From Sulfobacillus benefaciens (GTDB taxonomy: Bacteria > Bacillota > Sulfobacillia > Sulfobacillales > Sulfobacillaceae), in the NCBI GenBank assembly GCA_003023725.1, contig PXYT01000036.1, forward strand, positions 1-39,143: 39,143 nucleotides of DNA, read 5' to 3'. Under the pieces are notes generated by a model. It ran no database searches. It worked only from the letters and a program-made list of their open reading frames with translations, and was not told the origin of the DNA. The position numbers were made by a program, and so were the translations under genes. Shown here in pieces: positions 3,760 through 39,143 of the stretch; within the stretch, counting starts at the first letter, position 1, and the number at the start of each line of letters is the position of its first letter.

Positions 3760-4400
3760 GGCGGTCTCAAAAGATGCGTTCAATCGCTACGGTGTATTCG
3801 TCCCTGTTGAAGAAGAACCGGAACCAAAAGAACCCGTAAAGACGCAAGTGGGGATTGACCGGGGACTGGGGGAGCCCGTCAGTCTTTCGACAGGAAAAAT
3901 GTGTCGCAATCCCCTTTTTCCTTCGCAAGGATGACAACCGTCGGGAAAGGGCCCGGCGAAAACCTGCAATGAAACAGAAAGGTTCTATCAATAGAGCCAA
4001 AGCATGTTGTGACGGTTGCACATATTCACGCCAGGACGGCAGATCGTCGTGTAAACTTCCTGCAACAAGTCGGCACACGGTTGATTAACGCCAACCAAGT
4101 GGTGGCTGTTGAGAGTTGGCAGGTACAGAATATGATGGTCTAATCACCCTCTTGTACAATCCGTCGCAGATGTCGGATGGGACGAATAGATACGCCAACT
4201 CGAATATCAAGCTCCGTGGTATGGGAGAAGGGTAGTCACGATGAACAAGTTCACCTCGTCCAGTACACGGTGTTTTGACTGTGGTCATGTCACTCCGAAG
4301 AGGCCTCTCCATTCGCAATTGGATGTGTCCAGAAAGCGGAGAATATCTCGACCGAGATATCAATGCCATACAACATCTTATCCGCAGGGCTTGCGCTGTT
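3760..4400 (+). pseudogene. tnpB: Decayed tnpB (IS605/IS1341-type RNA-guided nuclease)
   Basis: Translation in several shifted plus-strand frames gives a nearly continuous TnpB C-terminal two-thirds. Frame one (3760-3925) carries SKDAFNRYGVF, EPKEPV and VGIDRGL (RuvC-I Asp). A second frame carries FLRKDDNRRERARRK and KQKGSINRAKA. A third (about 4000-4143) carries HARTADRR, TRLINANQVVAVES (RuvC-II Glu) and a TAA stop. Then come LVQSVADVGWDE, IRQLEYQAPWYGRRVV, TRCFDCGHV, and finally RNWMCPESGEYLDRDINA (RuvC-III Asp). At least four frameshifts and internal stops make it non-functional as read, and one zinc-ribbon Cys is changed to Ser. No element ends are visible nearby. The N-terminal part is either lost or too decayed to read in 3653-3760. 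Confidence 0.85.
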
Positions 4401-36211: not shown

Positions 36212-37932
36212 GCCGTATACATATTCTCGACCCCTTGGTGGCCGATCAAATAGCAGCCGGAGAGGTCGTTGAACGACCGGCATCGGTCGTAAAGGAATTG
36301 GTGGAAAACAGTCTAGACGCCGGAGCCGGGCACATTGAAGTACAAATTGACGACGGAGGCAGACGGCTTATAGCCGTTCAGGACGATGGTCAGGGAATGG
36401 ATGGGGATGACTTGTTATTGTCGGTACGCCGGCATGCCACATCCAAAATTACGGTGTTGGACGATCTTGCTCACACACTGACGTTGGGGTTTCGGGGGGA
36501 GGCTTTGGCCGCTATATCGGCTGTGAGTCGCACGTCCTTGCGATCTAGACCCCACGGTGAACCCTATGGATTTCAACTGGTGGTGGAGGGAGGGCAAGCT
36601 GGCCAGCTCAGCCCGGTGCCAATGGCAGAGGGAACAGTGATTCGGGTAGAGGATTTGTTCTTCAATGTGCCGGCCCGGCTTAAGGCCGTGAAGTCGATTC
36701 ATGCGGAACTAGGAGCGGTTCAGCAATTATTGCACCACTATGCGGTAGGGTATGCCCAGGTGATGCTGACATTAAAGGCTGAGGATAAAGTCCTGTGGAA
36801 CACATTAGGAAACGGCAAGGCCGACGACGTGATTTTGCTGCTTTATGGCTCCGAAGTGAGAGACAGCCTCCTACCCGTCCATGACGAATTTGAAGATTTA
36901 ACGATTACAGGCTACATTTGCCCGCCGGTAAAAAACCGCGGCACAAGGCAGGCTCAAAGCCTCTTTATCAACCAACGCTGGGTGGCTAACTGGGTCTTGC
37001 GCAATGCTGTGGAGGAGGCCTTTAAACCAATTCTTCCTGAGCGCCGGTATCCTTATTTCTGGCTGTTCGTGACGCTCAGACCCTTTGAAGTCGACCCCAA
37101 CGCACATCCCACCAAACAGGAAGTCCGGCTTGATCGCGAGCGGTATATTGCTGGTAAACTCTATCGCGCCGTGCAAAAAGTTTTGGCTCGGCAGTCGTCA
37201 TCAGAACCTCTAACTGTCTCGACGAATTCGGATCAGATCGGATTTCACGCGCGAGAATCCGAAGGGACGGTGGCACCGGCACAAATTACCTGGTCTGCCG
37301 ATAATATGACAACAGATGGGCCCGTGGTTTTGCATGACGAGTATCAATCGCTCATCCCCCTAGCCCAGTGGCAAGCCAAGTATATTATTGCCCAGGGCCC
37401 CTTGGGCCTGTATTTAATCGACCAGCACGCGGCCCACGAGCGGGTATACTATGAGCAGTTCCGGCGCATGGGCCAGGATATTCTTGCGGCTCAACCGCTT
37501 TTGATTCCCTATAGTTATACATGCTTGCCAGGGGAATGGGGAAAATGGCTGGAGTACCGCGAGATGTTTGCAGAAATGGGGTTCGACATCACTGAAGTCG
37601 GCGGCACAACCCTAATGATCCGCGCAGTGCCCCAGGGCATCTCGAGTTCACCCCATGAAGCCGGCGGGATCGTCCGAACTGTTTTAGAATCCCTTACGGA
37701 TGACGAGCACCATCACGGTCATCCGATATTTTGGACACAGGAAGCGAAATATGCCCTGGCTGCGTGCAAGGCGGCGGTTAAGGCATACCGGGTTATGACC
37801 ATGGCGGAAATGCGAGCACTAGTGGATATGATGTCTACTGTCGAAGACCCTAGAGGATGTCCTCACGGCCGTCCCACGATGTTGCACATGACGTTGGAGG
37901 AGGTGGACCGCCGCTTTGGACGAAAGGGGTAA
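36208..37932 (+). CDS. mutL: DNA mismatch repair endonuclease MutL
   Basis: The product is 574 residues. The GHKL ATPase motifs are ELVENSLDAGA (about residues 30-40), DDGQGM and GFRGEAL. The C-terminal domain has DQHAAHERVYYE (about 405-416), which fits the DQHA-x2-E-x4-E endonuclease motif, and C551-P-H-G-R-P, the second metal-site motif. This is the nicking type found in bacteria that lack MutH. It joins MutS and nicks the strand to be repaired. The 3' end overlaps miaA by 17 bases. Confidence 0.96.
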   Translation: MSRIHILDPLVADQIAAGEVVERPASVVKELVENSLDAGAGHIEVQIDDGGRRLIAVQDDGQGMDGDDLLLSVRRHATSKITVLDDLAHTLTLGFRGEALAAISAVSRTSLRSRPHGEPYGFQLVVEGGQAGQLSPVPMAEGTVIRVEDLFFNVPARLKAVKSIHAELGAVQQLLHHYAVGYAQVMLTLKAEDKVLWNTLGNGKADDVILLLYGSEVRDSLLPVHDEFEDLTITGYICPPVKNRGTRQAQSLFINQRWVANWVLRNAVEEAFKPILPERRYPYFWLFVTLRPFEVDPNAHPTKQEVRLDRERYIAGKLYRAVQKVLARQSSSEPLTVSTNSDQIGFHARESEGTVAPAQITWSADNMTTDGPVVLHDEYQSLIPLAQWQAKYIIAQGPLGLYLIDQHAAHERVYYEQFRRMGQDILAAQPLLIPYSYTCLPGEWGKWLEYREMFAEMGFDITEVGGTTLMIRAVPQGISSSPHEAGGIVRTVLESLTDDEHHHGHPIFWTQEAKYALAACKAAVKAYRVMTMAEMRALVDMMSTVEDPRGCPHGRPTMLHMTLEEVDRRFGRKG

Positions 37933-38863
37933 ACAGCCTTTATTAATTTTGGCCGGTGCCACTGCGGTGGGTAAGACCGAAATCAGTTTGGCGATTGCGC
38001 GCGAACTGAATGGGGAGGTGATTTCTTGTGACTCGGGGCAGGTATTTCGGGGGCTTGATATCGGCACCGCGAAAATTTCTATGAAAGACCGAGGAGAAAT
38101 TCCACACTATGGCATAGATATTGCGGATCCCCGCCAGACTTTCTCGGTGGCCGACTACCAACGTTACGCCCGGGAAGCGATATCCCAAATTGCCGGGCAC
38201 GGAAGACTGCCTATAGTGGTGGGCGGAACCGGTCTCTGGATTCGGGCTCTCATTCAAAACTATGTGTTTTCGCCCCAAGATCCCCAAATTTCCCGGATTC
38301 TTCGGCAGCACATCCGTATGATTGGGGACGAACACGGATGGGACATTGTCCGGCAGATCTTGAGCACAGTGGACCCGGCCAGTTATGCGCGGATTGCTCC
38401 GCGGGACTACAACCGTTTGACGCGTGCCCTGGAAGTGTTTTGGAGCACCGGCAAACCCTTGCCCCGAAATGGTCAGGATAGTCCGTACCGTGTGTCATAC
38501 TGGGTCTTGACCCGGCCTATGGCGGAACTCCGCGAGCGAATCCGCGTTCGAGTACAGGAAATGATGTTTCGGGGACTGCCGAAGGAGGTACTGGGATTGT
38601 TGCAACAGGGCATCGACCGCTATTCCCAGGCTTTGTCGGCTATTGGTTACAAAGAAACCGCAGACTGGGCCTACGGATTAGCAACCGCAGAGGAACGCGA
38701 CAGCTTGATCATACGGCATACCAGGCAATATGCCAAACGCCAATTGACGTGGTTTCGCTCGGAAAAGGCGGCTCGATGGCTCGATTTGTCGCTTGTCGAC
38801 CCCCAACGGGTGATACGGCTGATAGTGCAGGATGTCCACGAACATTTGCTGATGCCAAGTTAG
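37916..38863 (+). CDS. miaA: tRNA dimethylallyltransferase
   Basis: The product is 315 residues, starting with a TTG inside mutL; GGAGGAGGTGG lies about nine bases upstream and decides this start. The P-loop GATAVGKTEIS (about 13-23) and SCDSGQVFRGLDIGTAK (about 38-54) are MiaA motifs, and GGTGLWIRAL and a later QYAKRQLTWFR complete the pattern. It transfers a dimethylallyl group to A37 of tRNAs reading UNN codons. The gene often followed by hfq in Firmicutes is here followed by a convergent sleB-like fragment overlapping by four bases. Confidence 0.95.
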   Translation: MDERGKQPLLILAGATAVGKTEISLAIARELNGEVISCDSGQVFRGLDIGTAKISMKDRGEIPHYGIDIADPRQTFSVADYQRYAREAISQIAGHGRLPIVVGGTGLWIRALIQNYVFSPQDPQISRILRQHIRMIGDEHGWDIVRQILSTVDPASYARIAPRDYNRLTRALEVFWSTGKPLPRNGQDSPYRVSYWVLTRPMAELRERIRVRVQEMMFRGLPKEVLGLLQQGIDRYSQALSAIGYKETADWAYGLATAEERDSLIIRHTRQYAKRQLTWFRSEKAARWLDLSLVDPQRVIRLIVQDVHEHLLMPS

Positions 38864-39052
38864 CGGCAGAAGACCTGAGAGGCAATGGCAGCAGTTATCG
38901 GTAAAGTGGTCATCCAGCGGTTAAACGGCAGAGATGGGTTGTAAAAAAAGAGAGCGTCATGAGTCGGATCCCATCCTCTCAAGGCGGCGGCTGCGGCCAG
39001 GTAGGCGGTGGAGTTGACTGGGCTCCAGATGGATCCGTTGGTTACGGAATGA
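38860..39052 (-). pseudogene. sleB: 3' part of a SleB-like spore cortex hydrolase, apparently interrupted
   Basis: Reading leftwards from about 39052, the minus strand encodes HSVTNGSIWSPVNSTAY, AALRGWDPTHDALFFYNPS, NRWMTTLPITAAI and a final SQVFCR followed by TAA. This is the C-terminal end of the SleB/CwlJ hydrolase domain (Hydrolase_2), where GWDP...AL-Y/F-Y-NP...W and a final I-G/A-x-H/Q-x-F are diagnostic. Upstream of HSV the expected VI-EP-x-x-F segment is missing, and the DNA turns into an IS-like right end in another frame. So the gene seems cut by a mobile element. SleB degrades cortex peptidoglycan at germination. The rest lies outside the window. Confidence 0.75.
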
Positions 39053-39143
39053 ACTCTCCCGCCACCTAACCCCGATGGGGTTGAGGTGGGGGTTTCGGGG
39101 TCGCCCCCACAGCTTCCTGGCTCCTTGATCGCTGCGCCGAGAC
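39049..39143 (-). mobile_element. Right end of a TnpB-type (IS605-family) element with tnpB 3' end
   Basis: On the minus strand from 39143, one frame reads VSAQRSRSQEAVGATPKP and stops at TAG (39066-39068); an R-S-x-x-QE-x-x-G tail is common in IS605-type TnpB. Its end overlaps a stem, CCACCTCAACCCC with GGGGTTAGGTGG (39062-39088), followed by CGGGAGAGTTCA. This resembles the hairpin plus GGGGAGTGTCAA end at the left of the window. In such elements the region is also the 3' scaffold of the guide RNA. The element continues beyond the window, so the full tnpB and left end are unseen. Confidence 0.55.

Follow-up and report, generated by a model that had tools for sequence, protein, structure and literature searches.

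The transposon end and the sleB remnant in the window

The window analyzed here (39,143 nucleotides, contig C86) belongs to a Sulfobacillus benefaciens genome, G000, of 4.56 Mb in 155 contigs. At its right edge, the minus strand passes from a mobile element directly into a gene. Positions 39049 to 39143 (minus) hold the right end of a multicopy IS200/IS605-type element that extends past the window edge, and positions 38860 to 39048 (minus) hold the last 62 codons and the stop of a sleB-like gene. The convergent neighbor of sleB, miaA (37916 to 38863, plus), lies outside the element and was used as a flank for the synteny test. We rejected the 93-aa open frame at 38860 to 39141 as a gene, since it is a fusion of the element end and sleB. 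The sequence-only reading of this DNA had described a TnpB tail and right-end hairpin running into the last sleB codons, and this anatomy was confirmed. An intact sleB frame continuing through the region, which would have spoken against that description, was not found; the frame there is the fusion.

The tnpB portion (39066 to 39143, minus) comprises the last 25 codons and a TAG stop. It encodes VSAQRSRSQEAVGATPKPPPQPHRG*, which by eye is colinear with the TnpB C termini of relatives' elements. This tail overlaps a right-end hairpin, CCCCCACCTCAACCC-CATC-GGGGTTAGGTGGCGGG (39058 to 39092, minus), identified by single-sequence prediction and from eight aligned right ends. The hairpin ends with GAGAGTTCAT and covaries: 6 of 25 consensus pairs carry changes on both sides among the eight copies, and 3 of those 6 lie within it. 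In the same alignment GGGAGAGTTCAT is invariant, and the single-sequence fold of the whole right end is only modestly better than its shuffles (z of −1.66). The element terminates ...GGGAGAGTTCA(T) at 39049. We infer that the right end (39049 to 39143, minus) serves as the omegaRNA/reRNA scaffold, with which the 3′ end of tnpB would overlap.

Twelve further copies of the right end are present in G000 with 77 to 100% identity: seven exact matches of 88 to 96 bp at contig ends, one exact 45-bp match, and four diverged copies. The left end was found at 13 places reading TTGAA CATAATGCCC, with TTGAA preceding all 13. Because right-end copies sit at many contig ends and matching left ends occur at 13 places, we conclude that the assembly is interrupted at copies of this element, and the edge of C86 falls inside that repeat. 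G000 may be a metagenome assembly with varying alleles. Elsewhere in the window (4178 to 4369, plus), there is a degenerate TnpB fragment with an in-frame TAG (PF07282, 38 bits).

The gene remnant encodes SVTNGSIW...QVFCR at 39048 to 38863 (minus), with its stop at 38860 to 38862. It matches Pfam PF07486 (Hydrolase_2) at profile positions 40 to 100 (E value of 2.6e-9; 39 to 100 in the genome-wide profile search), the C-terminal part of the SleB catalytic domain, and in 19 of 20 relatives its single best match is 46 to 82% identical.

The second half of sleB and the insertion site

The missing 5′ half of sleB lies at C113:90-834 (minus), adjoining the left end of the element at the contig edge. 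A second PF07486 match at C113:90-203 (minus) covers profile positions 2 to 39 and complements the half in the window, and the two together supply the Hydrolase_2 domain of a SleB cortex-lytic enzyme. These halves were the only two PF07486 matches in a profile search of the genome, and G000 has no other recognizable SleB/CwlJ-family (Hydrolase_2) gene. An uninterrupted PF07486 gene is present in 19 of the 20 relatives searched, and none was detected in the remaining one, G015. The 5′ half starts with ATG at C113:834, contains a LysM domain by profile match, and loses frame at or near a run of seven C residues (C113:261-267) between the LysM and hydrolase domains. This frameshift could be a real lesion or a sequencing error; if real, sleB would be broken twice. 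In the dN/dS comparison, dS was mostly saturated.

We call this gene SleB-like on the grounds of domain and synteny only. It has the Hydrolase_2 catalytic domain in common with Bacillus SleB but differs in its LysM N terminus, in being broken, and in belonging to a genus with no recognizable YpeB. YpeB (PF14620) was absent from the eight genomes of the genus that were searched, with a positive B. subtilis control.

The sleB flank on C113 runs ...CCCGGACAGTTTGAA, terminates in TTTGAA, and is followed by the left end of the element. Joining the two flanks gives ...GQF-E-SVTNGS..., which is the sequence in intact relatives and leaves the hydrolase domain uninterrupted. Among relatives whose site is intact, the closest have TTTGAATC at the junction (TTTGAA|TC), and the empty sites carry no target duplication. 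Four relatives (G002, G003, G004, and G006) carry mutL-miaA, an uninterrupted sleB, an MFS transporter gene, and a peptidase gene in this order, which bridges C86 and C113. Synteny and the reading frame agree with the unbroken sleB of relatives, and the joining of the two contigs at the insertion is therefore well supported, though no read spans the junction. A chance joining of the right end to sleB by misassembly is highly improbable. The contig does terminate within a repeat, but the reciprocal half of sleB stops at the left end of the same element, the motif and frame are as expected from one insertion, and synteny is concordant. Taken together, the left end and sleB 5′ half on C113, the empty sites of relatives, and synteny support the insertion of a TnpB element in sleB as originally proposed. 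Of the pieces then expected beyond the window edge, the left end and the 5′ part of sleB are on C113, but the assembly lacks the interior of tnpB.

From the empty sites of relatives and from the frame of sleB, we place the right boundary of the element after GTTCAT, so that the target motif is TTGAA and the element inserted 3′ of it inside the sleB catalytic domain. The alternative motif TTGAAC was rejected since it would put sleB out of frame. A TTGAT motif, with the element running ACATAATG...GTTCA, is compatible with the frame but less likely, as GAATC is the reading in the closest relatives that retain an intact site. An empty-site search for two insertions in G004 returned one diverged site in G003 (68% identity), by which the boundary was not fixed. 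By sequence, the insertion cuts the C-terminal part of the hydrolase domain off the SleB protein, and enzyme activity has probably been lost.

The element family and its predicted guide

Full copies of the element, about 2 kb in length, are present in G002, G003, and G004; both reading frames are open in the G002 and G004 copies, with tnpA divergent from tnpB. Family scans of one G004 copy assigned tnpA to Y1_Tnp (E value of 1.5e-40) and to NF033573 above its cut-off, and TnpB to the guided_TnpB family NF040570 (187 bits against a cut-off of 100), with a Cas12f1-like TNB match. The catalytic-motif residues of the relatives' TnpB look intact by eye. All 2404 plasmid records matching TnpB were below 60% identity, and none was close. 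Within G000, three left-end copies, on C121, C1, and C146, extend inward into sequence that matches the 3′ end of tnpA in relatives' elements; these continuations are 98 to 100% alike mutually and 83 to 91% alike to full-length matches in other genus members, several of which run on into tnpA. At C24:106363-106547, the same left end is followed by an interior of unrelated sequence; this copy may have undergone an internal deletion or be a shortened form of the element.

The family thus shows a Y1 HUH TnpA (in relatives' full elements and at three G000 left ends), subterminal hairpins (judged on the right-end hairpin in eight copies), and insertion 3′ of a fixed motif with no target duplication, as IS200/IS605 elements do. 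A RuvC-type TnpB nuclease is present in relatives' elements. For the copy in sleB, the assembly contains the final 25 tnpB codons but no element interior, and we assume an intact tnpA or tnpB there.

The closest described system is ISDra2 of Deinococcus radiodurans (Karvelis 2021, PMC8612924). Like the sleB element, it pairs a Y1 tnpA with a tnpB, has hairpins at its ends, and inserts 3′ of a TTGA-type pentamer with no duplication of the target. In both, the RNA scaffold overlaps the 3′ end of tnpB; the guide comes from the flank in ISDra2 and is predicted to do so in the sleB element. They differ in the motif (TTGAT in ISDra2, TTGAA here) and in gene arrangement, with tnpA and tnpB partly overlapping in ISDra2 and divergent in the sleB-type element. 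In ISDra2, the guide is a stretch of about 16 nt of flank borne by an RNA from the tnpB 3′ end and the right end, and we adopted this length (PMC8612924). The authors of that work propose that TnpB cuts the donor joint beside the motif, after which repair brings the element back; members of the IS200/IS605 family are known to excise and insert without duplicating the target (PMC8612924).

On the best account, a complete IS200/IS605-type transposon with divergent tnpA (Y1) and tnpB inserted 3′ of TTGAA, splitting sleB into the 5′ half on C113 and the last 62 codons, which lie in the window. By analogy with the family, the right end would yield an RNA whose last 16 to 20 nt, TCCGTAACCAACGGAT..., match sleB beside TTGAA. 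TnpB would then cut the empty sleB allele left by excision, and repair from a sister copy would put the insertion back. The predicted guide of 16 to 20 nt, TCCGTAACCAACGGATCCAT (39029 to 39048, minus), consists of the first sleB bases past the right end. By the revised boundary it is TCCGTAACCAACGGAT(CCAT), starting TCCGTAACC. The sequence-only reading was correct in that the flank is sleB but began one base too early; its guide, TTCCGTAACC, was rejected because relatives' empty sites and the sleB frame put the start one base later. Guide production, cutting, and retention at sleB may be expected from this comparison. However, a flank-reading guide is standard for every copy of such an element and nothing special to sleB, and the mechanism is the one already known for the family; it is the anatomy only that is demonstrated at this locus. 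We found no literature on TnpB together with Sulfobacillus.

A second split germination gene and the persistence of the insertions

On C1, a GerA-family gene is split at profile position 174. It sits behind spoVAD, spoVAE, and spoVAEA-type genes and is 78 to 85% identical to uninterrupted genes in G001, G002, G004, and G005. Because of these spoVA neighbors and this identity, we take it as the spoVAF of G000, a name given by synteny and family. The insert (L144:3036-4889, equal to G000 C1:151035-152888, minus) is fully assembled, with 1,854 bp comprising a divergent tnpA (Y1_Tnp, E value of 9.4e-43) and a 448-aa TnpB (NF040570, 165 bits). Its removal gives GCCTTAATTTAT|ATTAAGGAC, which matches G004 at ATTTATATTAAGGA and restores the frame. 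With its motif TTTAT and its end TTCAA, this is a different element from the one in sleB, and its putative guide, ATTAAGGACATTGCC, would read spoVAF. In G006, one GerA-family gene was found, compared with two to five in other genus members; it is not a spoVAF orthologue (about 25% identical), and the single gene may reflect genome incompleteness. The probability of two hits in germination genes by chance was 0.0005 to 0.044, a rough post hoc estimate with assumed target sizes and copy numbers that is only suggestive.

B. subtilis spores without both SleB and CwlJ show an approximately 10^4-fold drop in colony formation (PMC13393411), and SpoVAF/FigP amplifies germinant-receptor signals in that species (PMC11837508). 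With sleB as its sole recognizable gene of this type, G000 is predicted to have a germination defect, and the two insertions together suggest spores whose germination is poor, altered, or absent. Since Spo0A and two other GerA-family genes are uninterrupted, the cells may still sporulate.

We consider it probable that a complete tnpA/tnpB element split the sole recognizable SleB/CwlJ-type gene and that this was tolerated through lost or changed SleB/SpoVAF-dependent germination, not through TnpB holding a needed gene. Relaxed selection on germination is a better and simpler account than an element "holding" a working gene, because sleB carries a frameshift and a second, distinct element belonging to that superfamily interrupts spoVAF. 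These two observations weaken the earlier view of an element holding a germination gene, although its premise of an interrupted sleB stands. That TnpB targeting of the empty sleB allele actively keeps a costly insertion seems rather unlikely to us. The TTGAA motif and guide layout fit the donor-joint model, and the catalytic residues of relatives' TnpB look intact, but with the frameshift even an excised sleB would remain nonfunctional, and the tnpB of this copy lies in the unassembled interior.

Adaptive or neutral gene loss in a lineage that has ceased to rely on SleB, with TnpB serving ordinary element maintenance only, has about an even chance of being correct; the spores would then not be made, or another lytic enzyme would serve germination, which we hold with the same balance. 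The broken spoVAF and the independent sleB frameshift favor it, as do the other flanks of the element, most of which look intergenic or unclear, clear-gene insertion not being the rule. On the other hand, with Spo0A and the two GerA-family genes uninterrupted and the spoVAD/AE genes beside spoVAF in frame, the sporulation machinery is not generally decayed. Gene loss overlaps with relaxed selection, and the sole difference is whether TnpB targeting matters.

A reversible switch is very unlikely; in it, TnpA would excise the elements seamlessly in some cells, thereby repairing sleB and spoVAF, and TnpB would reinstate the insertion. The frame is exactly restored at both junctions, and the family excises and inserts without target duplication (PMC8612924), but every IS605 insertion would look alike in this respect, sleB carries the frameshift, and the empty sleB allele is absent from the G000 assembly. 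For two RNA-guided transposons to hedge germination capacity across the population, with excision restoring spoVAF (and sleB, but for the frameshift), is just as improbable.

What is new here is that the sole Hydrolase_2 gene was hit, that its 5′ half carries a frameshift, and that spoVAF was split by a second element; the mechanism was already known. This is a natural case of RNA-guided transposons striking two genes of one pathway, and it raises the question of whether costly insertions become fixed through TnpB targeting or whether such targeting merely accompanies gene decay. Mobile DNA also splits a spore gene in the case of skin in sigK, which is excised by recombinases during development; the sleB element shows no sign of such excision. 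In G004, a related element (L098) lies inside a gene whose halves resemble, by eye, a metallo-beta-lactamase-fold hydrolase.
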